A DNA stretch of 64,000 nucleotides from contig OX419762.1 in assembly GCA_948567375.1 (NCBI GenBank), positions 34,229,465 to 34,293,464 on the forward strand, read 5' to 3'. The DNA comes from Lunularia cruciata. Taxonomy: Eukaryota > Streptophyta > Marchantiopsida > Lunulariales > Lunulariaceae. The notes beneath the pieces are model-generated. The model saw only the letters and a list, made by a program, of their open reading frames with translations. It had not been told where the DNA came from and did no database searches. This document shows positions 6,957 through 55,163 of the stretch, piece after piece. A program made the translations under genes and the position numbers. How positions within the stretch are numbered: position 1 is the stretch's first letter; every line of letters starts with the position of its first letter.

Positions 6957-7560
6957 GTGGCTGTAGCAATGGCAAGGAGAGATATCCCTATATCATTTAG
7001 TTGGGTGTTAGGGGCTAATCAAATTCTCACAATAAAGAAGGGCACATGGAGCATTAGACCGATTGCTATTGGAGAGATCTTTTTGTGCTTGGTTAGCCAT
7101 ACCATTATCCTTCAACATCAAGTTCACTTCCAAGAGCATCTAAGTCCATATCAATTTGGAGTAGCTACACCTAGAAGTTGTGAAGCTATTTCTCTAAACA
7201 TTAGGGCACTCTTAGATATATGTCCTAAGTGGATTGTCCTACAAGTGAATGTTAATAATGCTTTTAATAGCATCTCTTGGGCATCCATCTTAGAGAGCTT
7301 AAGGATTTCATTGGATCCTTGGTGAGTCTCATTCCTTTTGTGCAGTCATTCCATGGCTCTCTTGCTTCTCTTTACTACAAACATGGGTGGTCATAGGAGG
7401 GAGTATTGTCTTGGAATCAATTGTCAGTACACAATAAGGAGATCCTTTAAGAAGACCTTTGTTTGCTACGGCTCACTTCAAAGCTCTCATATCTACTAAT
7501 TTGGCCATACCAAGTTCTGTATTTCTCCCCTTAGCAAACAATACACACATTGTGAGCCCG
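6957..7560 (+). pseudogene. LINE reverse transcriptase core
   Basis: An open stretch of 122 codons (6957-7325) carries RPIAIGE, the PYQFGV segment, CEAISLNIRALLDICPKW and VLQVNVNNAFNS. These match the fingers and motif A of non-LTR reverse transcriptases, where the last segment normally reads KVDFxNAFNS. A second frame at 7522-7560 carries FLPLANNTHIVSP, matching motif C, which normally reads L-A-D-D. Both aspartate positions are Asn here. The line KLHLVGLRVKASKCKAWSPS at about 7600-7660 fits the thumb-side segment of the same family. Confidence 0.7.
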
Positions 7561-8503
7561 ATAGATCAGATTAGGTAGGCCTTTGCTCAGTTGAGTACCA
7601 AGCTACATCTTGTAGGCTTGAGAGTCAAGGCGTCAAAGTGCAAAGCATGGTCCCCTTCAATTATCCCTTCCTATCTTGAGCTTCTAGAGATGTGTGTCTC
7701 ATCTACAAATGGACTAGGTATTCTTGGAGTGCCAATAGGATCCAAGGATTTTATCATATAGTTCTTAGAAATTGCCCTTGTAGAGGATATTCTCCATGTG
7801 GATGACCTTCTTCTACTAGAAGATCTGCAAGTGGCATTTGGTATACTCTCCTATCAATTGACTTACCTTCTCCGCATGGTTCTCACTTCCTTGACTTTCC
7901 TACCACATTTGAGAGCTTTTGATAGGAGGATTATGGGAGTCTTTGGTGATATCATCAAACCAAGGACATTTGAGTGTGTAATGGGGGATTTGGCAAGTAG
8001 ATAGACATCTCTACCAATATTGTATGGAGGGGTAGGCCTATTATCTATGGAGGAGATGACACCCATGCATTTTTGGGTAGTTGGACTCTCTTGGCACCCC
8101 TACTTTCCTCCCATTTTGTGGTTGCTGATAGGCCAATTTTGGAGACATATGTGACCAAGGTGGAGGAGGGATTCTTTTCTCTCTAGGTTTTTTTATAGTA
8201 GATGAGAGATGGTCTATCAACATAGGCATGAGAGTACCTTCCATCCTTTGCTTCACTACCATAGGATTGGACTAGATGTTTATAATCTTCCTTGATGGAG
8301 CAACCATGTTAGCAATGCTACATTCTCTCTTAGTTGACTTGTCCATTCCTTGGGCCACTAGAGCACATCTTCTCTCTTGCTTCATCAAGGATGAAGACTC
8401 TTGGATCCTAGCTTAATTGTGCATTAGGGCATTCCAACTTGCACCATCCACCTTCTCTACAATGATGAGGTTTTGTTAGGTATGGTCCACCACATCTACA
8501 TCT

Positions 8504-9088
8504 TTGTTACTCACTTGTGAGTGTGGTTCTACGCTAGATGCAATAGCGGTCCATATGACACAATGTCCTTTTGGAGGACAAAGGATAGCTACCCATGATG
8601 CCATCAAGGATATAGTGTATCCACTCTCTTGTGCTATGGCACGAGAGAGTGGATACCTTGCTTGGAGGGGAGCATTCATATTCTTTGTAGACAACATGTG
8701 TCCAAGTAGACTTATACTTGGTCCAAGATGATCAGATAATAATGGCGGATGTTGTAGTTATAGACCCTACGCATGATGTAGTTTTGGAGGGAGTGATTAC
8801 TCATCCTCTTGGATGGATGGAGAGCAAAGCTTTAAAATGGAAGGTCTCAAAGTATAGGGGTATGTAGTGAGGTCACCTCCTTGTTCCTCTAGCCTTGGAG
8901 TTATTGGAGTGATAGACATGGCCTTTGACACATTTGTTAGGGAGTGCACAAGAGCTTATCATATTAGACATAAGGGGCTATCACTCTCACTCTCATACTT
9001 TGTAGCATACTTTAGACAGCATGTGTCCATTGCTCTACAAAGAGCATTGGCTGGTGCAATCCATAGGAGAAGCAATCACTCTAGGTGA
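8504..9088 (+). pseudogene. LINE C-terminal finger and restriction-like endonuclease
   Basis: The frame from 8504 has CECG...H...C, then GGQRIATHDAIKDIVYPL, the usual continuation after the CCHC-type finger in RLE LINEs. A second frame from 8742 has ADVVVIDPTHDVVLEGVITH, with the Asp and Glu of a PD-x12-(D/E) nuclease site in place. A third frame (8867-9088) has GVIDMAFDTFVRECTRAYH and RQHVSIALQRALAGAIHRR, a tail typical of the same proteins. The nuclease nicks the DNA target to prime reverse transcription. The frames are offset, so no protein is made. Confidence 0.65.
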
Positions 9089-9876: not shown

Positions 9877-10285
9877 TATGGTACCCACATTTTTTTTTTC
9901 AAAATGGAGAAGAAGAAGTGTATAGAGAAGTTGGATTGCGCCTATATGGCCAAAGAAGGCAAAGAAAAGAGTCTTCAGGATGAAACCCAAGGTAACATGG
10001 CTTCAGGTCATAGGGTGAAGTACTCATACTTGCCTTGTCAGCATACAACCTGAAGTAAGAAGTGTTCATATCGGGGAGAGCTCAACCCGAAGTGAAGATA
10101 GTGTAACAACCTTTCTTCGGGGCAAGAAGTTCAAGAAGGGACAGTTCAAAAACTGGTGGTCATACGTGTGAAGTACACTTGATAGTGACACGCGTATGCA
10201 AGAGGTGTGTTTTCTTGGTAGAAACTTGAATTGAAGAGAGACAAAGAAGGCGCGACTCTATAAAAATCAAGCTAACGACAAAGCA

Positions 10286-12862
10286 ATGTCGAGCAATTTT
10301 CCTTTGCCATTGAGGAGTCGTCCTGCAGGAGATCGTGGGAAGGGAAGTAGAGTTGAAGACGTGCTAGTGTGTAGAGGAGAATTCAAGAGAGTTAAACTAA
10401 GAGATAGTGAGGAAGAAGGAAAGATGGGAGGAAGAAAGAAGAACTCCAAATTTGCAATGAGAAATCATGCGATTTGATGGTTAGATATGATCGCAAGAAT
10501 TGAAGTTTTGAGCCAACTTTGGATCACATTCTTGGCGTGGAATTGAAACGTAAGTTTTCCAGGATTCATGACCGAGATAATAGAGAGTAAGTGTCTCGAT
10601 GGCCCCGAGGAAGAGGGGAAGAGAGGAAATCCGGCTCGCTGGACAGAGTCGGATTGGAGATTGGTGCTCGGAAGAGAGGCAAGCGTAGAGCAGGGTGCCA
10701 CGTTCTTGGGGAAGGGAGAGGTAGCTAAAGAAACCCAAGAAGTGAGGGATACCTTCTCTTTGAAGAGGACAAAGAATGGGTATAAGGTCAAGAGTTGCAA
10801 AGATCCGGTGAAGAGAGGGATTGTGAGTGCTCTCATGGCAATCTTGAAGCCGAAGAGGACAACTTATGTGATGAAACACCAAGCGGTGTTCTTCCATAAG
10901 ATGTTTGCAAGAGAACCTATCAATTGGGCAAGGTGCTTCCATGGGAGGACAAGGCAAATGGTGTGGAATTTGTGGGATAAGTCACTTCCATAGTACATCG
11001 TGCCGTTTGCAACACATTTCTACCTTGGGTTGAATTTGCTTAATGCGGCAGAGCGCAGCAGAATGGTGTCTCACTTTCATCCCGACTTGAGAAGGGACTT
11101 CAACACGGAGGAGCAACAATATATTCTTTAAATCCAAAGCACTAATGAGTACTATGCGTAGACAGGGAAGAGTGCGGAGGTAGAAGTGAGTACTTTGAAG
11201 TCGAAGAAGCAGAGTTGTCAAGGAGAAGGCAAAGACGTAGAGAAGACAAGACCTTAGAAGACCATGAGAGGAAACCTGAGGAAAGGTATGGTGGTGATTG
11301 CATCATCAAAAGAAGACTTGAAAGGCAAAGCCGAGTGCAAGTCCAAAGACTCGGAACACGAGGAGGAACCTGAGCTCACGCTACAAAGTGGGGATACAAG
11401 TAGCGATAGTGATGAAGGTGGAGAGATGACGTTAGTACCCGCTACAAAAGAGGGAGAAGTTTGGGTGGAGCTCGAGGAAGATAATAACACATAGTTGGAG
11501 GACGAGGTACCTGAGCCGGAGGAGAAGAAGATTACGATTCAAAGGGGAGTTTGGTCAAGACACAAAGCAAAGTGTGAAGTGGGTCCAAGCAAGGCAAAGG
11601 AACAGGAGAATGCTAGTTTGGGAAGTGAAGCGTCTATTCCAATACGACAACTGCAGAGAAGAAGGCGAGTATTGGGAGAAGAAGAGGTGAAGAAGTAGAT
11701 CACTCCGTAGGTTGAAGTAGTTGCAAGTGATGGAGTGGAGTACCTACAAGAAATTGTGTGCCCGTTGTTAGTGAAGCTAGAGCACAAGAAGAAAGAAATG
11801 CAATCAAAATGTCTGGAGGTGAAGACTATGTTGCAGGTTTTGGCAAGACTGGAAGAAGAGAACTCGGAGTTGATGAAGAGTATAATCCGAGGTGAGGAGG
11901 AAAGGGAAGTACTGAGAAAGGATGCAGTAGTGCAGAGTCAGGTAATTGAGAACTTAAAGAGAGAAGCAAGGTATCAAGAGGAACTTGTGAAGAAGAATGA
12001 CATAGCAAGGGAGAGAAAAGTAGCTGAGTATGAAATCTTGAAGCAACAGTTTGCTGATTCAAGACTAGAAATTATCCATGCTATGGCGAGGGTAACAGAG
12101 AAGGAACAAGAGCTCAATAGAGTGATGGAGAGTGTAGAAGAGAAGAAGCAATTGTGGCAACGGGAGTTGACAGAGAGATATAGGGAAGAAGAGAGATTAC
12201 GAGAGTTACTTTGTAATCAAGAGGAGAAGATTGTGCAGAAGGAGAAGGAGAAGGAAATTATGAAAGCCAAGTTCGAGACAAAATTGGCAATGTATAGGGA
12301 AGATTGGCTTGCAGATCAGGAGCATGAAAGGAAGATGAGATTGGAGCCATTAAAGGAGATTGTAATCATGATGAATGTGATGCTGAGTACAAAGGCCAGT
12401 GTTTGTATTGAAGAAACGAGGCTACACGAGTTGAAGTTGTTGGTACAAGAGATGAGGAGGAGACATGCAAAGGACCTTGACTTGAATGCTCTGTTAATTA
12501 GTCTTAGAACTCGGGTAGATAGGAAGATATTGGAAGTCAAAGACAATATCACGATTAGATTAGATCTAGTGAAGTTAGAGATAGATAAACTTCAGAAAGA
12601 TGTTAGAGCAAAACCCGAAGTAGATGAAGTAGGAGTGCAAATGTCTTCAAAGTTACCATTGGAGACATTAGAGAAGAGTGGGTCAGAAGATAAGGAGTAA
12701 GATAGATTACCCACTAGTGAAATGTCAGATCATGAAAGAGAATTGTTAGATCTGGTAGAAAATGTAGGAGTTATGAAACCCAAGGACATAGTAGTAGGAA
12801 GTAAAATTACTTTGGTTTCGGGTTTGAAAGCCGAGGAAGAAGAAGACATCAGATCGGATTAG
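10286..12862 (+). pseudogene. Coding remnant in copy A: N-terminal domain plus coiled coil
   Basis: A fossil reading region within the LTR. The first half (to about 11100) has a conserved, probably globular part with segments such as GKRGNPARWTESDWRLVLG, RTTYV and AVFFHKMFA, and a Tyr/Phe-rich segment near 11000. The middle (11264-11700) is very acidic and charged. The second half contains a 321-codon uninterrupted stretch at 11735-12700, rich in Glu, Lys and Leu in heptad-like order, a long coiled coil. The end carries the signature EVGVQMSS...ETLEKSGSEDKE, shared by other copies. The N-terminal part recalls the loosely defined 'putative plant transposon protein' class found in plant retroelements, but I cannot confirm that without a profile search. 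It has roughly ten breaks. The function is unknown. Confidence 0.6.
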
Positions 12863-12979
12863 TAACTAATTTGAGATGTGAATAGGCAGATATGAAGAGG
12901 TGCATTGTCATTTTGGATCTGCAGGTTTGTAGAGTCATTAGGAAGAGGTAGATTAGGAATATAACTGTCAATTGTTTCA

Positions 12980-12988
12980 CTATTTAAG
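12980..12988 (+). promoter_or_regulatory. TATA-like box of copy A
   Basis: CTATTTAAG lies after the coding remnant. The same box occurs at the same relative place in copies B (14055-14064, reverse), C (20506-20515), D (46719-46726, reverse) and E (54487-54495), 670-680 bp before the unit end in A, C and E. It is the likely U3/R core promoter. Confidence 0.6.
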
Positions 12989-13379
12989 AGTGGCATTTGC
13001 AGTCAGATGTTGTTCAGTGCTCATTATTTTTGAGAATAGATAAAGCAAAGTGTTGTGAAGCAGTGTTTGTCACTTAAGCTTAATTCCAAGTATCAGCTTT
13101 GCAATTGTGTTTGTGAGTGTGTGAAGAAATTTGAAATGCAAGTCAGAGTGCTTGTTGGATGTTGGATTTTGCAGCCTTGATCTTCATTCTATGTGTTTGA
13201 TCCTGAGTGAAGTGCAATCGGAGCAATGCCTTGACAGATCTGAGAGGAATTGTAGTGTTGGTAGTATTCTGCATTTGTGATTGTAGTGCAAAGTTGATGT
13301 GAAGAAATTTTGATCGAGGAAGTTGTGCCTTCAGTGGAGGGGTGGAACACAATTCTGAGGCAAAGTTGTTTTGCAGTGA

Positions 13380-13384
13380 AGTGC
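13380..13384. repeat. Target duplication AGTGC of copy B, left
   Basis: AGTGC at 13380-13384 is repeated at 17084-17088 directly beyond copy B. The undisturbed site in copy E (near 54890) reads gaagtgtcatttttggg, which confirms a clean insertion. Confidence 0.85.
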
Positions 13385-16300
13385 TATGACAACCCGACAA
13401 ATATCACTTTTGTGGTAATTGGGTAAGTAAAGTTTGTTCCTGCAGAGATACGAGTCAGAATTGGTCAAATATGAAGTCAAAAGTCACAATTGCAGTTCTT
13501 CTTGATGTCTTCTTTAATCTCTCAGGTAGAAACTACACCTAGAAGAGAGTAACAAGCTCACAATCTTGACAACTTGTCACGAATACACACACATAATCAC
13601 ATCATAGCAAATTTTGTCCAAACAACTCTTGATTGTGATGATTCAGATTCTCCCAAAGACGGCACTTCATTGCAAAGATTGATTTTGCCTCAGAATTGTG
13701 TTCCACCCCTCCACTGAAGGCACAACTTCCTCAATTGAAATTGCTTCACATCAACTTTGTGCTGCACTCACCAATGCAAAATACTACCAACACTACAATT
13801 CCTCTCAGATCTGTCAAGGCATTGCTCCGATGCACTTCACTCAGGATCAAACACACAAAATGAAGATCAAGCCTGCAAATTCCAACATCCACAAGCACAC
13901 TAACTTGCTCTTTGGAATTCTCTACACACTCACAACTACAAACACAAAATTGACAATCGGAATTAAGCTTAAGCGATGAGTATTGAGAACATCACTTCAC
14001 TTTATCTATCTTCAAAAATTTGAATACTGAACAATATTATACTGCAAATGCTCCACTTAAATACTGAAGCAAACGGCAGACTTGCCTACCTAGGCACCGC
14101 TTCCTAACATCTCTTCCTACTTGCAGATCCTAAGTGACAGTCTATCTCTTCATATCTGCCTCTTCCTATCTCAAAATTGACTTTTATCCCAATCCGGCTA
14201 CCTCTTGTCTACCTCATCCATCTACCTCATGTCTACCTCATCATCGGCTTCCAAACCCGATGATCTTCCTACTATTTCTCCTTCTTTGGGTATGGCGAAT
14301 TCCACCAAGTCCTTCATTACTTCTACTACTTCTACACTACAATCTACAATTGAGCTCATGGGTAATCCATCTACATCCTTATCTCCTGACCCACTCTTCT
14401 CTAATGTGTCAATCATCATGTTTGATGACACTTGTATTCCTACTTCTGCGACATCAGGTTTTGTCTCCACTGTCACACTATTCCGAATCTTCTCTAATTC
14501 CGAATTGGCTAAATCCAGTCTAAGACTAACATTGTTCTCTACATCTAACATTTTCCTATCTACGCATTCCCTCAATCGAATCAATAAGGTGTTCATGTCC
14601 ACATCCTTGGCCTTTCTCTTCTGCGTTTCCTGCACAAGTAACTTTTAACTCATGTAGGCAAGCCTCCTCCAATCTCCCTTCAGCCTTCGTGCTTAAGATT
14701 GCTCTTTACTTTCTTGCAACTTCCCCTACTGACTCCGATGCATATCCTCAAGAGCGCTCTATCTTCAACTCCTCACGATACATCTTCAACTCGTCTTTGT
14801 ATTCTGCAGCGAGCATCTTCTTCTCCTCTACATACTGCATGCTTTGCTCTTTTGCGCTCTTGACAAGTTCTCGCAATCGCTCTTCTTCTTCTTGCCTGGC
14901 TGCCAACTCTCTCTGCCATGCTTGATCTTTCGCTGCTGCACTTTTCTTTAAACTGTCCAACTCCTGCTCCATTACAATGTTCATCGATGCGCACATCACT
15001 CACTTCTTCCTTCATCTTGTTGAGCCACATTGCTTGTTCCTTGAATTCTCCAGCTCGCCTTTGTAGTTCTTTTTCTTTTTCTTTGCAGCTTTCTTGTAGC
15101 ATGGTCAGAGTTTTCTTCATCAAGCCTTCCTCCCTCCAAAGTCCTTCCACTTCCTTGCTTCTTTGGACTTATTGCTCCTGCAACTCCTTCACTTCACTCA
15201 ACAAATACTTTGCCATCTGCAATTTGTTCATCCTCTTCCTGCGATCTTGGGGAATTACTCTTTGATGCTCCTTCAACAGCTCCATCAATGGTGTGACCAC
15301 CTTTGTCAAATAGGATATCCCACCAAAGTTTTCTTCCTCTTCTTTGCCATCTTTGTCTGGAGTCTTCTCCTCCGTCATCGGCTACTTCATCCAAAGTTGC
15401 AATCTTTGTATCTTCATCGTTTCGGCACTTTCTTTGTCTTGGCCTCTTGAACTTGGCCCCGCGGGATTCTCTGCTTTCTCTTCTGGTCTTGACTTGTTCA
15501 CCACCATTGCCTGACAAGCCTCACTTACTGCTACCAATTGCTGGACCTCTGGCTCCCCATTGTTATTGCTCCTAGACTCCTCACTTTTCAATGTGAGCTC
15601 CTCTTCTTACGATTCCTCTTCTTGCAACTCAGTCTCTTCCCCAAACTCCGATCCCAATGATGCCTCTTTTACAATCTTTGCCGTCTTCAACATCAGCCAC
15701 CGAGTCTTCCTTTGCATGGGAGGCAATATTGCTTCTTTGGGTTTGCCACATTTCTTTGTCTTTGGATTGGTAATTTCTTTGACTTTCCATTATCCAGTCT
15801 TCGCAAAGTATTCATCATTTGCTCAAAGATGCAACATATACTGGTGCTCTTCCTTGTCTGCTTCCTGTTGTAAATTGGGATGCATGTGAGACACCATACG
15901 ATGACGCTCTTCTTTGGTTAGTTAGTTCAGTCCAAAGTAGAAGTGGGCTGCAAACGGTGCAAAATAATGTGGTGGCGAGCCCGTTTGCCAATTCACCACC
16001 ATCTGCCTCTTTGCCCAATTTATTGGAGCTCCTGCAAACATCTGATGGAAGAAGACAGCCTGCTGCATGTTCACGTAGGTAGTTTGTTCTGGCTTGAACA
16101 TGGCCATCATTGCCCCCACAATACTTCTTTGGATCGGATCCCGATAGGACTCCACCTTGTAGCCATTCGTGGTTCTCGGAGCAAAGAACAAATTGCGGAT
16201 CTCCGCCGTCTCCTCTGTAGCATCACACTTCCGATAGAAGATGATCCCTGTTGGTTCTCTTGCTTCTCTTCCCAATACTAACTTCCAATCTGACTCAGTC

Positions 16301-17083
16301 CATCAAGCCAAATTGCCTCTCTTCCCTTCCACCTCGGGACCCTCCTCACAATTACTGGCAGTGATCTCTGCCATCACTCCCAGGAAACTAAAATTCCAGT
16401 TCCATGCTAAAAAAGTAATACGAAGTCTAATCAAGACTTTGATTCTAGCTACTACATCTACCCTTCGAATTGCAAAACCTCGCACCGCCAGCGCATTGGC
16501 CACCTTCTTCACCATGATCTGTTCTCTTGTTCTACGATGTTGGAAGATGAGACCCTCTCCTGGACAAGACACTCTAACTCCCTCAGGGTTTTGGAAAATC
16601 TCACTCTCGATGGGCTTCCGGACACGCATTACTGCAGGGCGACTACTCAAAGGAATTGGAAATTTACTTGGAGCATTCAACTTTTCCCTGTGTAGTCGCA
16701 ATTTTATATTACCCCGAATCGCAATCATTCTTCAATCGATTTTGGCTGCAAATTTCTCTCTTCTGCATGCAACTCCCGGTCACTATCAAAACATGCTTCT
16801 TTTGCCCCCACCATTTCTTGAAATGTACTTTCTTGCCACGTACAGAGGTTGTTAAACGGTCTTTGTCTTTCCTGCGTCTTCCAACCCGAAGACTGTGATC
16901 TTTGGATTTTTTTCTGGCGTACTCTTCTTCTGAGTACCTCTATCATTGGATCCGATGTCATCTTCTTCGGATTTCCTCCAAAGTTACTTCCATCCATTCT
17001 TTGTCCACAACTTGACTTTCAGTGCTTACTTTGTCTCTTAAACAGAACTAACCATAGAAAAACCAAAAAATATGGGTACCACA
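13385..17083 (-). mobile_element. Copy B: long solo LTR inserted in copy A
   Basis: In plus-strand order it starts TATGACAACCCG and ends GGGTACCACA, the reverse complement of the family ends. It is 3,699 bp long with AGTGC on both sides. Coding remnants run on the minus strand between about 16730 and 14220: first the conserved N-terminal part (16728-15922), then the charged and coiled-coil part (15591-14748), then the C-terminal signature GIQVSS...DTLEKSGSGDKD near 14400. The TATA-like box is at 14055-14064. It is broken by about ten or more changes. Similarity to copies A, D and E is high in the last 700 bp of the unit (13385-14060). It inserted after copy A was in place. Confidence 0.75.
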
Positions 17084-17412
17084 AGTGCCATTTTTGGGAG
17101 AGCCTGAATCGTCACAATCAAGATTGTTTGGAAAGAATTGATGGAGTTGTGATTAAGGAGTGGTAATTTGTGACAAGATTGAGAATTAGTGCTTGTTACT
17201 CTCTTCTGGGTGTGGTTTCTACCTGAGAGATTAAAGACGCAACCAAGAAGAACTACGATTGTTACTTTGACTTTGTATTTAGACATTTTTGACTCGTATC
17301 TCTATGGGAACAAACTTTACTTACTCAATTACCACAAAAGTGATATTTGCCAGGTTGTCACAAAGACATTATAGAAAAAGATTTTATAACTACAATTTCT
17401 AATATTACACAT

Positions 17413-20400
17413 TGTGGTACACACATTTTTGTTTTGACAAGTTTTGAAGAAGAAGTGTATTGATGAAGCTAAATTACAAAGGAAAGAATGGACTTATGTG
17501 TCTTCAGAGTAAACCTGAAGAAGTTGATCTTGGGTTGAGAACTGGAGGTACTCGGATGGGGTTACAAAGAGACAAATCCAAAGAAGTGCGTCTTCAGAAC
17601 ATGAACCAAAGGCCAACATGAAGATGATATAACAACCTCTCTATGTGTTAGGACAATCACAAACATACACTTCAAGAAACGGCAGAGGCTAGAGAAGAAT
17701 ACCTTGACAGTGACAAGAAACCAACATGCACTAGAATTGAGAGTTGATTTTGAAATTGACTGAAGAATGATTGCACTTTGGGGTACTATGAAATTATGAT
17801 TGTGCAGGGGGAAATCAAACATGTCAAGTAGATACCTTGTTCCTCTGAGTAGTTATCTTACAGTAATGCACATCAAGAAGCTGATTGAGAGTGAAATTTT
17901 CCAAAGTCCAGAAGGGGTTAGAGTGTCGCAACTAGGAGAGTGGATAATCTTCCAGTGCCAAAGAACTAATGAGCAGATCATGGCAAAGAAGACTAAGAAT
18001 GCACTCACAGTGAGGAGTTTTACAATTCAAGGATTAGATGTCATAGTTGGGATCAAAGTCTTGAAGACTTTGGATCACATTCCTAGCATGGAATTGGAAT
18101 GTCAATTTTCTAGGCATCATAGCAAAGATAGTTGCCAGTAATTGTGAGGAAGGCCCCGAAGTTATGGGGAAGAGAGGAAATCTAGCTCAATGGATTGAGT
18201 CGTATTGGAGGTTAGTATTGGGGAAGGAAGTAGGAGATGCAATTGGGGTCACCTTTTATAGGACGTGTGACATTGCAAAGGAGAATGTGGAAATCACAAA
18301 TTTGTTCTTTGCTCTATGGACCAACAATGGCTACAAAGTGGAGTCCTATTGGGACCAAATTAAGTGGAGCATTATAGAGGCGCTCATAGCCATGTTCAAA
18401 CCCAAGAAAATGACTTATGTGAACATGCAACAGGCAGTCCTCTTCCACTAGATGTTTGTAGGAGTAAAGGTGAATTGGGAAAAGTGTTTCCATCAAAGAA
18501 CAAGGTAGATGATCGTCAATTGGAGAACCAATTTGCCACCACACTACTTTGCACTGTTTGTAGCACACTTCTACTTTGGATTAAATCTGTTGAGAATGGA
18601 GGAGAGGCAACATATGGTTTTGCATTTCCATCCTGATCTTCAACAAGAAGGGGATGAAGAGGAGCAATGATATATTTTACAATTGCAAGCCTATGATATC
18701 CATTTCATCAAAATGGGATAGAGGGAGATAGTAGAAGGACAAAGTCCAAAGATGAAGAAGCAGACTAAACCCAAAGAGATAACCTTATCCTAGCCACAAT
18801 GCAAGACCCAAAGACTCAATCCATGACGTAAGAAGGCAATGAAGGACAAGACTTTGGAGATAGAGTTTGAAGGAGAGATAGAGTCGAGGAGAGGAGACTC
18901 CAAAGAAGTTGAACTCACATTATAGAGTGAGGAATCCGGGAGTGAGCATGAAGGTGAAGAGGAGGTCCAACAATTGGTTGAGGCAAAAGAAGATGAGGCA
19001 TTCCATGCGGCAATTGATTGTATGGAAGGAGGAGATGGCCCTTGCTTAGAGTTGCCCATGGAGGAGATGGATGAAGAACCAAAGAAGGAAGATCTGAAGG
19101 GAGGAAGAGCCAAGAGGTCAATGATAGCTGAACTTGTAGGTCCAAGCTCAATTGATAAGGAAGAAGTAAGCTTGGCGGGAATGTCATTGAAGGTACAAAG
19201 ATCAAGACTTCAAGGGAAGGCTTTGGCAAAAGAAGTGAAGAATGAAGACGGGTTAAAGATGAAGAAGACTTTGACGGGGTGAAGTACTTATTACAAATTG
19301 TGAGTCCATTGTTAGAGATGCTAAAGAAGTAGAAGAAGGTGATCTTTTCAGATCATATGGAGGTGAAGAATGAGTGGCAAGTGGTGAAGTATTTGTTGGA
19401 CAAAGTAAAGGAACTGAAGGAGATTATAACTCAAAGAGAAGGAGAAGTTGAGGAACTTTGAGTGGATGGAGTCTTGAAGAAGAAGACTTTGGAGAACTTG
19501 CAAGAGAGTTTTGAGAAGCATGGAAAAGAGATGCCCAATCAAGCCAAAGAATTGAAAGAGTAGACAACGTTGCTGGCAAAGATGAAAGGTAAGGTCAACA
19601 AAGTTTGCATTGAAAGCATTCAAGTGAAGGCAATGGCGGCTATGAATAGGAGTTAGAGAGCCTAAAGAAGAGTGCAGCAGGAAAGGGTCAAGCATGGCAA
19701 AGGGAGTTGGCGATCCAACACCAAGAGATGGAAAGATTGATAAGCTTGGTAAGAAGTGCTAAGGTGTAAAGTGCTCAGTATGCAAAGGAAAAGAAGATGC
19801 TTGCCGTTGAGTACAAAGACAAGTTGAAGATGTACAGAGAAGAGTTGAAAGCAAAGCAATCTCAAGGATATGCATCAGAGTCCATAAGAGAAGTTGTTGA
19901 AAGACTAGGAGCAATGCTGAGCATGGAATCTAAAGGAAGACTGGAGGAAGTGAGACTACATGAGTTAAAGTTGCTAGTGTAGGAAACTTGAAAGAGAAGA
20001 GCAAAAGATGTAGATGAATATGAACACTCTATTGATTTGTTTGAGGGAATGAGTAGAGAGGAAGATAATTGAGATAGGAGACAATGTAAGTCTCAAATTA
20101 GACTTAGAGTTAGAGAACTTTGGAGCAATGTGAAGGAAGATAAGAAGTCCAAAGTTGTAGACATAGGAGTGGAAGTGTCTTCAAATTAGTTATCAGAGAC
20201 ATTAGAGAAGAGTGGGTTGGAAGATAAAGAGTCAAATAAGTTACCCATTAGTACAATTGTAGTTTGTAGTGAAGAAGTAGTAGAAATAGCAAAGGAATTA
20301 GTAGAATTAGATAGACCTAAAGAAGGAGAAGTGATAGGAGGATCATTGTGTTTAGCGGCCGAAGACAAAGTTCACATCGGATTGGAGTAGGAACAGATTT

Positions 20401-21177
20401 GAGATTTGAAGATGCAGATATGAAGAGGTGCATTGTCATTTTGGATCTACAAGCTTGTAGAGTTGTTGTAGAACGGTATTTTGGTTAGTTATTGTCATTG
20501 CTTTACTATTTAAAGGAGGCATTTGCAGTCATATGTGGTTTAGTATTCATAATTTTTGAAGATAGATAAAGGAAAGCGCTGAGTTCAGTGCTTGTTGCTT
20601 GACCTTAATTTTGAGTATTAATTTTGTGTGTGTGTTTATGAGTGTTGGGAGAAATTTGAAATGCAAGTCAGTGTGCTTGTTGGATGTTGGATTCCACAGC
20701 TTTGGTATTCATTTTGTGAGTTTGATCTTGAATGAAGTGCAATCAAAGCAACACCTTGACAAATCTGAGAGGAATTGTAGTGTTGGTAGTATTCTGTAGT
20801 TGTGAGTGCATCGTTGAGTTGATGTGAAACAATTTTGATCAAGGAAGCTGTGCCTTCAATGGAGGAGTGTAACACAATTTTGAGGCAAAGATGTTTTGCA
20901 GTGAATAGCCATCTTTGGAGGAATTTGAATCATCACAATCAAAATTTATTTGGACAGAATTTGATGGAGTTGTGATTAAGAAGTGTTAATTTGTGAGAAG
21001 ATTACAATCTAGTGCTTGTTACTCCCTTCTGGGTGTAGTTTCTACCTAAGAGAGTAAAGACGCAACCAAGAAGAACTACATTGTTACTATTTGCTTTGTA
21101 TTTGGATATTTCTGACTTGTATCTTTGCGGGAACAAACTTTACCTACCTGATTACCGCAAAAGTGATATTTGTCACA
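17413..21177 (+). mobile_element. Copy C: long solo LTR
   Basis: It begins TGTGGTACACAC at 17413 and ends TTTGTCACA at 21177, about 3.77 kb. CACAT lies at 17408-17412 and again at 21178-21182. Coding remnants run 17800-20390 on the plus strand in the same order as in copy A: N-terminal part (17800-18640), charged part (18780-19280), coiled coil (19290-20130), and C-terminal signature near 20160-20240. CTATTTAAAG lies at 20506-20515. It has more than ten breaks. It sits only 50 bp from the end of copy A but is a separate insertion, because both have their own target duplications. Confidence 0.75.
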
Positions 21178-34163: not shown

Positions 34164-35608
34164 CTAGAATAAGGCGCAAATGACAGTTCTAGGATCTTTG
34201 CATCAATTTTCTCCTTGAAGAGATCCATAAGTTTTGGCATATAAGCTCTAGGTATCGGAATCAATCTCAAGGATCAATCTCAATTCCCAAGGTGCATGTG
34301 GAACCATAAAGATGATCATTGGAACCACAACACTTGGATTTACACACCCAATTTCAGAAAGCTCAAAAGAGGAAGCTTTCCCATGCTTATTCAACATCTC
34401 TCAAAACCTTTTCTCCTCCATTGGTAGAAAAAAATTTAATGAACCAACCGTCAACTCCTTGAGTGTAGATTCTATGAACATGTGACCTTTCTGATTTGGA
34501 TCCCTTAAGCTCTTTTGTTTTTGAGCAAAATGGACATGTTGATCAAAGTCACTTGGAAGAGGTTCAGCTACAGGCCTGACCTTTTTCTCTACACTCTTGT
34601 GTGGAGAAAAAGGTTTCCATCCTAGCCTTAGAACCTAAAAAGAACTCTATCATTGAGTAGAGCTTCCTCAAATGTATTTCCACCACTTGATCCTCATGCT
34701 CATGCTCAGGCTCAATCCGCTTGAGCTCTCCTAGAGGATCCTTCAACCTTATCTCCATGTGCACCCTTGATACGGTCTCATCCTCATCAATCAACCCCAC
34801 TCCTTTTAGTTCTTTTTCTTGTTCTTGCACACCTTTCCACTCTCTTTTGTGCAAATTGGCAAGTTGTATGTACACACTTAAAACACTCTAAGAAAACCTC
34901 ATCACTCCTATGCATAAGGTACTTCCCCTCTGAAGCAAGAAGACCTTCTCTTATGTACCATTATATTCTTGCCCTATAGTGGTATTTGGAGAAAATGGTT
35001 AAACTCCACCGTCACTTTAGGTAGAGAACCACTCCTCAAGTAGTCCCGATTGCACCCATGGTTTGTAGGTTTAGTGATGAATTGCATTGCTTTCTTGCCA
35101 TCTTGGCTTCTGATTTGAGCATAAGCAAAACCATCATCAAGGACTTTGGTCTCCATCCTCATTGTTGTAATTTATGTATGGTTGTCCAAGGATTATTGGG
35201 TATGATGTAGTCTCTTGAACAAAGAAATTTTGTTTAGTAATTACATCCCCAACCTTCACCTTTACATCTCGGCAAACACCATAGAGTTCTCTGTTAGTGT
35301 TGTTTTCTACCTTGATCACCCAACCATGCTTTATATCAATTGGCTATTTCTTGTGCTTGTAGAGCTCCTTGGAAATAATGTTTATTTCTAACTTATGATT
35401 GATAAGAGCAACCATTGGATCTGTTATGTTCCCAATCTTGATCATGGTTTTAGTAGTAGCTCTGGCCCATTTCCCTCTAGTATAGTGACTAGAGATCCCA
35501 TGATCATCATCCTCATCCTCCTCAAATCTGACCTTATGATTGTTGTAGTATCGAGGTAGCTCTAACTCCACTTCTTTTGTAACCATAGTATCAAGAGCAT
35601 TTGATAGA

Positions 35609-36349
35609 TGTAATACTTCAATGACAAGAGAAGAGAGAGAAACACAAATTACACACTCAACATTTGGTGCCCCAAAGGAGCACCTTCTCTTTATTATATA
35701 GACAAAGAGGATCTCCTTCAAGGAAGCTCCACCATAGGATTAGGCACATAGATAGGTGACATGTCAGCAAGCTCCACCCTTGGATTACTTACTTGGATGG
35801 GTGACATGTCAGTCTAGGTCCTATCTGGTTGGTCAAACAAGCTTTGACCAAAGGGAATCTTTTAGGGAATCTTCCTATAGGAGTCTCAAAATCACGTGAG
35901 TAAGGTATCATTGGAAAGCTCTTGATGAGACAAACCAGGGAGGAGGGAAGGACAGCCTTTTCTTTGTTGGGGAGGGGGGAATTTGCACATTCTTGAGGCC
36001 TAATTTATCTGTTTAGGCCTCCAAGATTGCCTTCAAAGATTTGAGGCATATTTTGGTTCCTACTCTATTAGTAGAAGTCCCCTTTTGGTGATGCCTCTTT
36101 CTGATCTGTTTAGTCCATCATGTGTAACATCCTTCCAAATGTTACTAAACCAATTCTCACCTTTAAATCATATGTCTGGCTATTGGTTCTAAGGTTCTCA
36201 AGTCTATTTTGGTTTCTGATCTATTAGTAGAAGTACTCTTTTGGTGATACTTCTATCTAATCTATTTTGACCATCATGTATAACATCATTCTAGATGTTA
36301 CCAAACCAAATTTCACATCTAGATCATATGGCTAGCTCTTGGTATTACA
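35609..36349 (-). mobile_element. Solo LTR, second family, inserted in gypsy 1
   Basis: In plus-strand order it begins TGTAATACTTC and ends GGTATTACA, 741 bp, with ATAGA at 35604-35608 and 36350-36354. It is the reverse complement of the copy at 39004-39691. Inside, a ~130-bp segment is tandemly doubled (about 36050-36165 and 36200-36310). No coding region. It has no internal element or partner LTR beside it. Confidence 0.8.
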
Positions 36350-36359
36350 ATAGAGCAAC

Positions 36360-38462: not shown

Positions 38463-39003
38463 CCGCACACCAATCCAAACCAATTGGGCGTAGAAACAGG
38501 CATGCAAGCACGCAAAGGATCCAATCACAAAAATCCAACAACAACTCTCATTGTTTTTTTGTCAAAATTGAGCTTCAAAGCACTCTTGCTTTGTCATCAA
38601 GACAATTTCAACCTATACTCCAAGCATCCTCCAATATGTAATTCAGCCTTCACCCAATTTGTACTCTAAGTGGAGTGATCCTATGTCTGATTGACAAGGA
38701 AAATCCTATGTAACTCAGATAAGCACAATTTTCTCTTTGTAAATTGTATTTTAGTATTCTAGGATTCAATAGAAAGCCTATGAGATAAGCTTTTCAATGA
38801 TATAAAATAAGCCAAAATCTGATCACTACAGCTCTCCTGAAAAGCTCTCAAACTTTGCTGGTTTTCTATGATTTTTACCTTAATTTCAAAGTACCTAATT
38901 TAGGGTTTGCTCCTAGGTCTGGATAACTTTCCCTAGATTTTTGGATCAAAGGTGCATTTAATCCTCAAAACACTCCAAAAACCTAGAATCTTCAATCATA
39001 GAT

Positions 39004-39691
39004 TGTAATACCAAGAGCTAGCCATATGATTTAGATGTGAAATTTGGTTTGGTAACATCTAGAATGATGTTGTACATGATGGTCAAAATAGATCAAATAG
39101 AAGTATCACCAAAAGAGTACTTCTACTAATAGGGCAGAAACCAAAATAGATTTGAAAAACTTAGAACCAATAGCTAGACATATACTTTAAAGGTGAGAAT
39201 TGGTTGGTAATGTATGGAAGGATGTTACACATGATGGACTAAATAGATCAAAAAGAGGTATCACCAAAAGGGGACATCTACTAATAGAGTAGGAACTGAA
39301 ATAGGCCTAAAGTCTTTGAAGGCAATTTCAGAGTCCTAAACTGATGAATTAGGCCTCAAAAATGTGCAGATTCCCCCCAATGGAGGAAAGGTTGGCCTTC
39401 CTTCCCCCCTGCTTTGTCTCATTGAGAGCTTTCTAACGGTACCTCAAGCACATGATTTTGAGATTCCTACAGGAAGATTCACTAAAGATTCCCTCTGGTC
39501 AAAGCTTGTTTGACCAACCAGATAGGACTAGGACCGACATGTGACCCATACAAGTAAGTAATCCAAGGGTGGAGCTTCCTTGGAGGAGATCCTTGTTGTT
39601 TATATATAAAGAGAAAGTGCTCCTTTGGGGCATCGGATGATTGAGTAAAAAATTTGTGTTTTCTCTCTTCTCTTGTCCTCGGAGTATTACA
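39004..39691 (+). mobile_element. Solo LTR, second family
   Basis: It begins TGTAATACCAAG and ends GGAGTATTACA, 688 bp, flanked by TAGAT (38999-39003) and TAGAC (39692-39696). TATATATAAAG lies at about 39599-39609, near the end, as expected for a U3/R border. It has the same doubled ~130-bp segment (about 39045-39320) as its inverted partner at 35609-36349. Confidence 0.75.
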
Positions 39692-39696
39692 TAGAC

Positions 39697-46047: not shown

Positions 46048-47888
46048 TGTGACAACCCAGAAAATATCACTTTTGTGGTAATCGGGTAAGTAAAGTTTGT
46101 TCCCGCAGAGATACGATTCAGAATTGGTCAAATACAAAGTCAAAAGTCACAATTGTAGTTCTTCTTGATGGCTTCTTTAATCTCTCAGGTAGAAACTACA
46201 CCCAGAAGAGAGTAACAAGCTCACAATCTTGACAACTTGTCACGAATACACACACATAATCACATCATAGCAAATTCTGTCCAAACAACTCTTGATTGTG
46301 ATGATTCAGATTCTCCCAAAGACGGCACTTCACTGCGAAGAACAATTTTGCCTCAGAATTGTGTTCTACCCCTCCACTAAAGGCACAAATTCCTCGATCA
46401 AAATTGCTTCACATCAACTTCATGCTGCACTCACAAATGCAGAATACTACCAACACTACAATTCCTCTCAGATCTGTCAAGGCATTGCTCCGATGCACTT
46501 CACTCAAGATCAAACACATAGAATGAAGATCAAGGCTGTAGATTCCAACATCCACAGACACACTGACTTGCTCTTTTGAATTCTCCACACACTCACAACT
46601 ACACACATGAAATTGACAATCGGAATTAAGCTTAAGCAACGAGTATTGAGAACAACACTTCACTTTATCTATCTTCAGAAATTTGAATACTGAACAACAT
46701 CATATTGCAAATGCTCCACTTAAATACTAAAGCAAATGGTAGACTTGCCTACCTAGGCACCGCTTCCTAACATCTCTTCCTACTTGCAAATCCCAAGTGA
46801 CAATCTATCTCTTCATATCTGCCTCTTCTTATCTCAAAATTGGCACTTATCCCGATCCGATGTCTACCTCATCATCGGCTTCCAAACCCGATGATCTTCC
46901 TACTATTTCTCCTTCTTCGAGTATGGCTAATTCTACCAATTCCTTCACTAATTCTACTACTTCTACACTAGGAACTACAATTGAGCTCATGAGTGACTTA
47001 TCTAACTCTTTATCTCCTAACCCACCCTTCTCTAATGTATCAATGATCAAGTCCGATGACACTTGTACTCCTATTTCTGCAACATCGGGTCTAATTACAA
47101 TCAATTCCTTTGCTAATTCTACTATATCCTCATCACAAATTGTAATTGAAAGCATGTGTACACTATCTACGCCTTCAATTTGTAACCCACTTTCCTCTAA
47201 TCACTCATGTTATTGACCCGAAGACACTTACAATCTGATCTTGCACTTCAGGTTTATTCACTATTGCTACTTCTCCTTCAATTCTTGTTCCATCTTCAAT
47301 CAAAACTGAAATTGAAGTCACGGGTATCCTAACTATCTATTCCTTCTCTATCCTAACTCTCTCTAATGCCTCTGGCAAGATTCCCAAATTCATCTTCATT
47401 GCACTCCAAAGTCCAACTATCTCAGATATAGTCATCTTTATCTTGAGTCAAAGAAGCTTCTAACCCGAAGTTGTGTAAACCCAAAGTCCGAAGTCCAAAG
47501 TCCGAAGACACTAAACTACTTTGTACAGTTACTCCCTAAACTTTAAATATTTGTAACTTCTTCTACAAACCTCCAAACTTTGCGATTTTGGTAGCAACGG
47601 AAAGCCTTGAATGAGATGCTTCAAACCAGATATAGCACTCTTGATTTGGACTTGTGAACATTGAGATATAGCCCCCGCAAGAATCTCGACCTGTAACTTC
47701 CATTCCTCCTTCAGGTCTGCACTCTTTCAATCGTGGCTGAGTCCGTCTTCATTTGACACAAAGTCTACTTCTTTGAGCTTGACCAAATACAAATTTCCTC
47801 TCATTTCTTCTCCATTTGGTTTCAATTTGGTTTCAGCAAGGCACTTCTTCTTCAAAACTCGTCCAAAATGAAAAATGTGGGTACCACA
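46048..47888 (-). mobile_element. Copy D: short form of the A-C LTR family
   Basis: In plus-strand order it starts TGTGACAACCC and ends GGGTACCACA, 1,841 bp, with TAAAG on both sides. The first 700 bp (R-U5 side) closely match copies A, B and E. The TATA-like box is at 46719-46726. Most of the coding region is absent, but the C-terminal part with IGVQVSS and DTLEK (minus strand, about 47155-46847) remains. Repeated TCCGAAG/CTTCGGA motifs lie at about 47470-47510. It has the same overall structure as copy E, but its own target site. Confidence 0.8.
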
Positions 47889-50251: not shown

Positions 50252-50800
50252 TCAAACTATAGCATTTTCCCTTGCCTCTTCCAATTCCATGAACTGCTCC
50301 TTCCTTGATTTCTCTACATCACCTCCTTGTGCCTTCTTTAATTTCCTATGAATGCTTTGAAAAGTAGGAAAACCAAAATGAATAGGTAAACTAGACTGAA
50401 TACTATATACCAATTGAAATGGAGAATATCCGGTGGATATCTTCATGGTTGTCTTAGACACCCATAAAACTCCATGAATCCTCTTGTCCCAATGGTGTTT
50501 TGGCACCTCTATTTCTGCATCTTTGGCTAGCATCATGCACGAGGTTTGATTGGTTCTCTCTACCAAGCCATTGGAGTTTGGCTTATAGGAGGTAGTCACT
50601 CTATGTATGATAGAGAAATATCTTAGCATGGCTATAGTGATACTTCCCATAAACTCTCCTCCTCTATTAGAAACCGAATCCAAAGGGCTTCCAAACCTAG
50701 TGATGATATGTTCATAGAGAAATCTACCAACTTCGTCTTCATTCTTTTCTCTCAATGGTCTAGCCTCAACCCACTTGGTAAGGTAATCAATAACTACCAC
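50252..50800 (-). pseudogene. Gypsy 2 integrase core
   Basis: This 182-codon stretch has MVVIDYLTKWVEARPLREKN, ITRFGSPLDSVSNRGGEF, YKPNSNGLVERTNQ and GYSPFQLVY, in the order of a gypsy integrase. It inserts element cDNA into the genome when active. It is the longest open stretch of this fossil. Confidence 0.85.
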
Positions 50801-53304: not shown

Positions 53305-55163
53305 TGTGGTACCCACATTTTTCATTTTGGACGAGTTTTGAAGAAAAAGTGCCTTGCTGAAACCAAATTGAAACCAAATAGAGAAGAAATGAGTGGAAAT
53401 GTGTGTTTTGATCAAGCTCAAGGGAGTAGACTTCATGTAAGAGGAGGGAAAAACTCGGATTTGATGTTGAAGGAGGGCAAACCCGAAGGAGAAATAGAAA
53501 TTGCAGGTCAAGATTCTTGCAGGGGGCATATCTCAATGCACACAAGTCTAAATTAAGCGTGCTATATCTCGTTGGAAGCGGCTTATTCAGGGGTTTCCGT
53601 TGCTACCAAAATCGCAAAGTTTGGAGGTTTGTAGAAGAAGTTACAAGCATTTGAAGTTTCAGGAGTAGATGTGAAGAGTAGTTAGGTGTCTTATGGTCAA
53701 TGTGACTTCGGACTTCGTACTTCGGACTTCGGGTTTACATGACTTTGGGTCTAAAGACTTCGCCTCAAGACTAAGATGACCGACTAAATCTGAGGAAGTC
53801 GGACATCGGAGTGCAGTGAAGGTGATTTTGAGAATCTTGCGAGAAGCATCAGAGGAAGTTAGAGTAAGGAAAGAAGATAGTTAGGATACCCATGACTTCA
53901 ATTTCAGTTCTGATTGAAGATGGAACATGAATTGAAAGAGAAGTAGCAATAGTGAATAAACCCAAAATGTAGGATCAGACAGTAAGTGTCTTCGGGTCAA
54001 TTACATGAGTGATTAAGGGAGAGTGGGTTACAAATTGAAGGTGTAGATAGTGTATTCATGCTTTCAATTACAATTCTTGACGATGACGAAGTAGAATTAG
54101 TAAAGGAATTGATAGTAGTTAAACCTAAAGTAAGAGAGATAGGAGTGCAAGTGTCTTCGGATTTGACATTTAACACCTTAGAGAAGAGTGGGTCGGGAGA
54201 TAGAGATTTAGAAGGCTTAATTATGATAAGAATTGCAAATCAGGAAGGAGAAGTATCAGAATTAGTGGAGGAATTAGGAGTTGTGAAACCGAGGATAGAG
54301 TAGTAGGAAGTACAGTTACTTTGGGTTCGGGTTTGAAAGCCAATGACAAAGTAGACATTGGATTGGATTAGTAACAGTTTTGAGATTTGAAGAGGCAGAT
54401 ATGAATATGTGCACTGTCATTTCGGATCTGCAGGTTAGAAGAGTTGTTGTAGAACAATATAGTTGTTAGAACTGTCGATTTCTTCACTACTTAAGAGTTG
54501 CATTCGCAAAGAGATGTTGTTCAGTGCTCATAATTTTTGAGAATAGATAAAGCAAAGTGCTATGAAGTAGTGCTCGTTGCTTCAGCTTGATTTCGAGTAT
54601 CAACTTCGTATCTATGTTTGTGAGTGTGTGGAGAAATTTGAAGTACAAGTCAGTGTGCTTGTTGGATGTTGGATTCCACAGCCTTGATCTTCATTTTGTG
54701 TGTTTGATCTTGAGTGAAGTGCATCAAAACAATGCCTTGACAGATCTGAAAGGAATTGTAGTGTTGGTAGTATTTTGCATTTGTGAGTGCAATGCGAGGT
54801 TGATGTGAAGCAATTTCAATCAAGGAAGTTGTGCCTTCAGTGGAGGGGTGGAACACAATTCTGAGGCAAAATCGTTTTGTAGTGAAGTGTCATTTTTGGG
54901 AGAGCTTGAATCATCACAATCAAGACTGTTTGGAAAGATTTGATGGAGTTGTGATTAAGGAGTGTAAATTTGTGACAAGACTGCAAGTCAATGCTTGTTA
55001 CTCTCTTCTGGGTGTGGTTTCTACCTGAGAGATTAAAGATACAACCAAGAAGAACTTAAATTGTTACTTTGCTTCGTATTTGGAAATTTCTGACTTGTAT
55101 CTCTGCGGGAACAAACTTTACTTACCCGATTACCACAAAAGTGATATTTGCAGGGTTGTTACA
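53305..55163 (+). mobile_element. Copy E: short form of the A-C LTR family
   Basis: It starts TGTGGTACCCAC and ends GGGTTGTTACA, 1,859 bp, flanked by CCTAC. It aligns with copy D end to end in reverse. CTACTTAAG lies at 54487-54495. The C-terminal coding part is present at 54058-54303 with EIGVQVSS and NTLEKSGSGD; the segment ELVKEL.VVKP before it recurs as ELVEELGVVKP after it. Most of the upstream coding region found in A-C is missing. Repeated ACTTCGG motifs occur at 53704-53745. Confidence 0.8.

Follow-up and report, generated by a model that had tools for sequence, protein, structure and literature searches.

The 64,000-nt window of the Lunularia cruciata genome analyzed here (C12:34.23-34.29 Mb, from 565.8 Mb of searched genome) contains five units, A, B, C, S1 and S2, which are very probably all solo long terminal repeats (LTRs) of an abundant Ty3/gypsy-order retrotransposon of about 13.5 kb. 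It is equally probable that this retrotransposon carries a separate, selected gene with an accessory role in the unique 3' part (U3) of its LTRs. The three long units, A, B and C, measure 3.7-3.8 kb, have termini of the TGTGG...TCACA type and are each flanked by an exact 5-bp target-site duplication (TSD). They had already been regarded as solo LTRs in the initial annotation because of their TG...CA-type ends and 5-bp duplications, and both features were confirmed (Table 1). The internal organization was also described correctly, i.e. a coding remnant of about 2.6 kb followed by a sequence box and then about 640 bp to the unit end, with the distance from the TATA-like box to the end being 682 bp in A.

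The flanks were compared for 32 units, comprising the five in the window and 27 from elsewhere, which are best-scoring genome matches and biased to well-kept copies. An exact 5-bp TSD was found for 22 units, three showed one mismatch (L030, L031, L048), three were unclear (L004, L034, L039), and the remaining four are LTRs of full elements without a TSD of their own. Two of the latter (L007 and L027) have a site resembling a primer-binding site (PBS) directly on their 3' side, while the other two (L029 and L032) have a polypurine tract (PPT) directly on their 5' side. A further copy of the S type, L026, also has an exact TSD. The best resolved full element, C12:56497838-56521761, is bounded by the LTRs L027 and L029, which point in the same direction, are 91.2% identical and share the outer TSD GACCC; a PBS follows the first LTR, a PPT precedes the second, and protease, reverse transcriptase (RT), RNase H and integrase lie between them in Ty3 order. 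The spacing of 16.5 kb between the two LTRs is due to a second gypsy-like element nested inside. Matched outer TSDs were also found for elements at C1:41.86 Mb (CACTC, L049 and L032) and C2:23.11 Mb (CTCAT, L056 and L057), and for five further elements one of the two predicted outer ends was found each. Overall, eight of the 13 pieces fetched at predicted outer ends held an LTR end. Counted apart from the three elements with matched outer TSDs, the A-type element L007/L019 has an internal region of 6,190 bp with PBS and PPT that is colinear with that of the B-type element.

The units are LTRs. They occur as same-direction pairs around PBS, gag-pol and PPT, and single copies flanked by a duplication of their own represent solo LTRs. 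A self-contained element such as a DNA transposon generating 5-bp TSDs would be suggested by the fact that most of the copies examined are single and have their own TSD, but it is refuted, with practically no probability left, by hundreds of copies with a PBS directly 3' or a PPT directly 5', by gag-pol between the pairs and by the lack of an own TSD on the paired copies examined. The initial annotation had proposed to look for same-direction pairs with gag-pol between them, and such pairs exist with PBS, PPT and one outer 5-bp TSD. The opposite case considered there, in which the units never flank a PBS-bearing internal region, does not apply in view of the full elements and of 559 exact genome-wide matches to a pattern joining LTR end and PBS (reversed control, 0).

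The exact 18-bp unit start TGTGGTACCCAYATTTTT occurs 4,201 times in the genome (reversed-pattern control, 0); it is common to A-, B- and S-type units, so that gene-bearing and gene-less copies are counted together. The PPT motif GGGGGTA directly precedes 281 of these 4,201 starts (reversed control, 0). All these counts refer to exact matches and are lower bounds, as copies differ by about 10%, and they would be in line with solo LTRs being far more numerous than full elements. For eight of the 40 5' junctions scored, one of the 40 scored 3' junctions lies further downstream on that strand, in six cases at a distance of 4.73-4.78 kb and in two at a longer one. At C12:55.79 Mb a 3' junction lies one LTR length upstream of a 5' junction; here one LTR seems to be common to two internal regions, which is likely the product of unequal recombination. 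Among the N-terminal domain matches listed, a match lies at the constant offset of 52-55 bp past seven of 35 LTR-start pieces (from 39, four short ones being left out) and 324-333 bp from four of 38 PPT places; the latter were hand-picked from 100 listed, and since the list of domain matches comprises 128 places, misses say little.

The internal region comprises about 6.1 kb between two LTRs of 3.7 kb each. It matches the Pfam families RVT_1 (2.6e-22), RT_RNaseH_2 (1.4e-30) and Integrase_H2C2 (1.9e-11) in this order, with a weak protease match before the RT (Asp_protease_2, 2e-4, below the curated cut-off), and is therefore of Ty3/gypsy order. Gag gave no Pfam match; it was identified from its location and from a zinc-knuckle motif recognized by eye. 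The PBS is one that we take to be of the tRNA-Asp type. With this presumed tRNA assignment, the PBS is of a non-Met type, which points to a non-chromovirus lineage according to the accessible part of the source (PMC6317226). The comparison of one A-type with one B-type element gave DNA identities of 86-93% for RT-RNase H, 77-80% for the start of the integrase, 72-82% for leader and gag, 82% for the repeat and unique 5' parts of the LTR (R-U5) and 56% for the U3 gene. Judged from this pair, the predicted U3 protein is the fastest-evolving part of the element, and RT and R-U5 look as if they had been exchanged between lineages.

The region of about 2.6 kb, or about 850 codons, is situated apart from pol between the PPT and the TATA-like box, i.e. 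in U3 as the initial annotation had placed it. Its prediction that the coding part is present twice per full copy was also borne out in the one element recovered completely, as a set of pieces (L027/L029), both LTRs of which contain the region. An alignment of 30 copies (8 A, 20 B and 2 C) was used to analyze its structure. All 20 B copies and one of the two C copies retain the ATG located at U3 nt 356 of B, the A copies use a different ATG that is kept in 8 of 8, and the stop codon is conserved in 29 of the 30 copies; in A it precedes the TATA-like box by about 117 nt. The core TATTTAA of this box is exact in 27 of the 30. These features bear on another explanation, according to which the coding region is a C-terminal extension of pol into the 3' LTR. 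Its location directly downstream of pol and the precedent of the CRM elements, as far as described in the accessible part of the source (PMC3059260), would be compatible with such an extension. However, the integrase-core frame stops well before the PPT in the one copy inspected (L029), and the conserved ATG, located at U3 nt 356 in B, comes only after about 355 nt of U3 that show no codon signal. A pol frame running into the 3' LTR as in CRM was hence rejected, and we regard this explanation as very improbable.

The differences fixed between subfamilies are distributed over the codon positions as in a protein-coding gene. Between B and C they amount to 29/222, 14/211 and 77/214 at positions 1, 2 and 3 of the N-terminal domain (13, 7 and 36%) and to 50/273, 47/301 and 104/258 in the coil part (18, 16 and 40%), as against 16/195, 24/185 and 20/192 in R-U5 (8, 13 and 10%). 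The same third-position excess was found between A and B in the N-terminal domain (66/232, 50/231 and 110/221), whereas it is missing in the first 420 nt (40/100, 28/95 and 41/100) and in R-U5. Accordingly, the ratio of nonsynonymous to synonymous divergence (dN/dS) is low, with 0.14 for the N-terminal domain and 0.12 for the coil part between B and C, 0.18 and 0.20, respectively, between A and C, and 0.16 for the coil part between A and B, for which the N-terminal domain is saturated. Shifted frames of the N-terminal domain gave 0.88 and 1.07 (B-C) and 1.05 and 1.37 (A-B). These comparisons show that purifying selection acted on the U3 gene during the divergence of the subfamilies. The U3 part of the long LTRs contains a separate gene of about 850 codons. 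The region could alternatively be a captured host gene or pseudogene that travels as a passive passenger in the LTR and has no role for the element, and the lack of a relative in Pfam or PDB, the broken state of the aligned copies and the spread of an S-type derivative without most of the gene would agree with that. But the codon-position bias, the low dN/dS in contrast to the shifted frames, the missing third-position excess in the first 420 nt and R-U5, and the conserved start and stop columns have largely refuted this explanation, which appears improbable.

Within the subfamilies, the differences are spread nearly evenly over the codon positions with a slight third-position excess, and the mean pairwise dN/dS of 0.33-0.44 is as expected if the copies derive from lineages active until recently. 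These values are also relevant for the possibility that the gene serves mainly from solo LTRs, where it would be driven by a promoter within nt 1-355 of U3 and form an independent scattered gene family with only a secondary link to the element. Solo copies do keep the gene region (20 gene-bearing units have an exact TSD), and the non-coding beginning of U3 may hold a promoter. Individual copies decay, however, as seen from the nearly even differences within subfamilies and the stops in every aligned copy, and only a very small probability can be assigned to a gene family of this kind. A selected gene that belongs to the element remains the preferred interpretation.

The S-type units, of which the initial annotation had made no mention, belong to a derivative without most of the gene. 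Within the initial 650 nt or so of S1 and S2, matches to the long units at the threshold used are confined to the first about 60 nt. From about nt 800 onwards the last about 250 nt of the gene are found, preceded by a diverged repeat of the same sequence and followed by R-U5. The tail of S1 is B-like (88.8%) and that of S2 A-like (82.6%), which may again reflect module exchange. A PPT followed by an S-type start occurs at 83 places in the genome with up to three mismatches and at 23 exactly (control, 0). One complete S-type element at C2:66.91 Mb has the TSD ACCTC on both sides, a PBS-like site with a changed first triplet, an internal region of 534 bp and a PPT; this internal region contains a sense frame of 128 and an antisense frame of 160 codons. 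Because 534 bp are too short for gag-pol, the element must have been moved in trans. It resembles the large retrotransposon derivatives (LARD) and terminal-repeat retrotransposons in miniature (TRIM), which are non-autonomous LTR elements, in having LTRs, a PBS-like site, a PPT and an internal region too short for gag-pol. In contrast to them, its LTR retains approximately the final 250 nt of the gene it has lost together with R-U5 modules common to the coding subfamilies, and its internal region holds one sense open frame.

Several observations weigh against an element-borne accessory gene in U3. Five of the 13 pieces fetched at predicted outer ends contained no LTR sequence (L051, L052, L055, L058, L061), and R was placed from the TATA-like box only. 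The codon signal is weak in the acidic part (A versus B, 45/115, 56/122 and 55/100 at positions 1, 2 and 3), and all 30 aligned copies are broken, with at least one stop each in two counted stretches; at 11 of the 128 scored places, the query among them, the matched N-terminal domain has no stop. The U3 gene is not needed in cis, because the gene-less S-type elements spread. Moreover, Pfam searches found no family at E<=1 with the U3 protein alignment A1 (14 members) and none at E<=0.01 with A2 (9 members), including the Plant mobile domain, Transposase_28 and Athila ORF-1 protein families, and no domain in the window pieces of the protein. The better of two PDB searches reached a chance-level E of 1.2 and the other gave no match, while AlphaFold2 yielded a mean predicted local distance difference test score of 40.8 for three window sequences, i.e. 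the fold is not predictable. The heptad periodicity is moderate and unspecific, with z 2.9 at 3.5 as well as at 5.0 residues, hence the coiled coil is based mainly on composition. Given the missing Pfam relatives, no PDB match better than E 1.2 and the unpredictable fold, the molecular role is a guess. The N-terminal domain is also unrelated to the one gag open reading frame (ORF) of this element with which it was compared (hhalign probability 0.1). A role in self-assembly or tethering is suggested by the long charged part of the protein, which is probably a coiled coil.

Regarding expression, only the gene copy in the 3' LTR would lie downstream of the element promoter. The protein could be translated from the 3' end of the element RNA. 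Alternatively, it could come from a subgenomic RNA that is spliced or starts internally and ends at the poly(A) site in R. Proteins are made from such 3'-terminal RNAs in the case of mouse mammary tumour virus (MMTV) sag and human immunodeficiency virus (HIV) nef. The U3 product would then be an accessory protein able to act in trans and possibly to assemble with itself. Reverse transcription using PPT and PBS would copy the U3 gene into both LTRs, and for this reason the formation of a solo LTR would strip off gag-pol and keep the gene.

The genes MMTV sag, HIV nef and foamy-virus bet are sense accessory genes located in or overlapping U3 and are hence present in both LTRs, so that sag, named in the initial annotation as the known example of a U3 gene, is not the only one. 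Like sag, the Lunularia gene is a separate sense gene that appears to lie wholly inside U3, with the U3/R border deduced from the TATA-like box. The three viral genes, however, belong to vertebrate retroviruses and encode unrelated proteins, whereas the Lunularia gene is found in a plant Ty3-order element and encodes a larger protein. Among plant elements, the centromeric chromoviruses of CRM group A share coding sequence within the LTR, since their polyprotein runs into the 3' LTR, but this is the tail of pol in LTRs of 299-1,225 bp according to the accessible part of the report (PMC3059260), and not a gene of about 850 codons that is separate from pol and has a start and a stop of its own, in an LTR of 3.7 kb. 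The additional ORFs of Athila, Bagy2 and SIRE (env-like, aORF-3S) are extra sense genes 3' of pol as well; in the available text they are placed internally, between pol and the 3' LTR (PMC7264820, PMC6317226), while the Lunularia gene follows the PPT and occurs in both LTRs, so that a classification as an env-like ORF was rejected. Retrosat2, RIRE3 and RIRE8 are also gypsy elements with LTRs of about 3 kb or above and an extra ORF, with Retrosat2 exceeding 12 kb, but their ORF0 is upstream of gag-pol and no LTR-borne gene is described in the accessible part of the paper (PMC3485330). In our literature search, which left most subscription papers outside, no separate gene within the LTR came up for any plant family. 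The initial annotation had called a reading region within an LTR unusual and had named no plant family with a U3-borne coiled-coil protein. Coding sequence in a plant LTR as such has a precedent in CRM; within the literature searched, partly in excerpts, a separate whole gene in a plant LTR is new.

Table 1. Positions of the LTR units and their parts within the window.
Feature	Position	Strand	Remarks
Unit A, first part (U3 including the coding region, R-U5 up to the B insertion)	9877..13384	+	Based on alignment, TSD and genome-wide matches; second base mutated (TATGG for TGTGG)
Unit A, remaining R-U5 3' of the B insertion	17084..17362	+	TSD AAGAC directly after; unit A about 3.78 kb in total
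Coding region of A within U3	10286..12862	+	Degenerate; N-terminal domain, acidic part, coiled coil; ATG 10286; stop TAG 12860-12862 at conserved column; 4 stops in counted N-terminal domain stretch
TATA-like box CTATTTAAG of A	12980..12988	+	U3 end presumably nearby
Unit B, LTR copy	13385..17083	-	TSD GCACT; about 3.70 kb; terminus CATA; nested in R-U5 part of unit A
Coding region of B within U3	14222..16728	-	ATG at 16728; frame broken by stops and frameshifts
TATA-like box of B	about 14063	-	
Unit C, LTR copy of a separate, more diverged subfamily	17413..21177	+	TSD CACAT; about 3.76 kb
Coding region of C within U3	17767..20390	+	Degenerate
TATA-like box of C	20506..20514	+	
Unit S1, LTR of derivative without most of the gene	46048..47888	-	TSD CTTTA; about 1.85 kb
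Unit S2, LTR of derivative without most of the gene	53305..55163	+	TSD CCTAC; about 1.85 kb; terminus TTACA

An integrase-like ORF (50252-50800, minus strand; Pfam rve 0.014, under the cut-off) lies between S1 and S2, which are 5.4 kb apart in opposed directions. The two units were rejected as the ends of one element, because each has its own TSD, and they are not the LTRs of this ORF. Elsewhere in the window, a reverse-transcriptase fragment at 6957-7325 (plus strand; Pfam RVT_1 3.2e-5, under the cut-off) perhaps derives from a long interspersed nuclear element, and the stretches 35608-36351 and 39002-39692 form an inverted repeat pair of about 0.7 kb with 82% identity and internal repeats of about 140 bp in each. 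The Rfam scan of the window gave no match. In the genome as a whole, 37 matches to the chlorophyll a/b-binding family were obtained, as befits a photosynthetic host. The gypsy-like element nested in the full element at C12:56.50 Mb (L027:7574-7894 and 8224-8760, L028:1759-2634, all on the minus strand) has a PHD finger past its integrase (Pfam 2.2e-7), and the flanks of the solo LTRs L035 and L042 resemble its sequence by eye. The reading of one of its ORFs as a Dnmt3-type methyltransferase was dropped, as the resemblance was seen by eye only and the Pfam and PDB searches gave no match. Retrotransposons with Dnmt3 are known from Klebsormidium, according to the accessible part of the source (PMC5890265).

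It is about an even chance that L. cruciata harbors a complete, selected and trans-acting accessory gene in U3, i.e. the sag/nef arrangement with an independent origin outside the vertebrate retroviruses, whose solo-LTR cassettes may outlive the element and feed back on their parent. If true, each gene-bearing solo LTR would be a potential stand-alone gene copy and the genome may hold very many such cassettes, which could either help the element or interfere with it in a dominant-negative manner through the coiled coil. Genes within LTRs can be missed, because additional ORFs of plant elements have been catalogued as parts of the internal region, as far as the accessible texts show (PMC7264820; likewise for Retand, PMC11963269), and solo LTRs bearing them may be taken for genes of the host. 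When placed in U3, a gene is doubled in each element, persists in solo LTRs and is open to exchange between LTRs. Hence, this placement makes it directly testable how a retroelement retains an accessory gene and whether its solo-LTR copies aid or inhibit the parent element.

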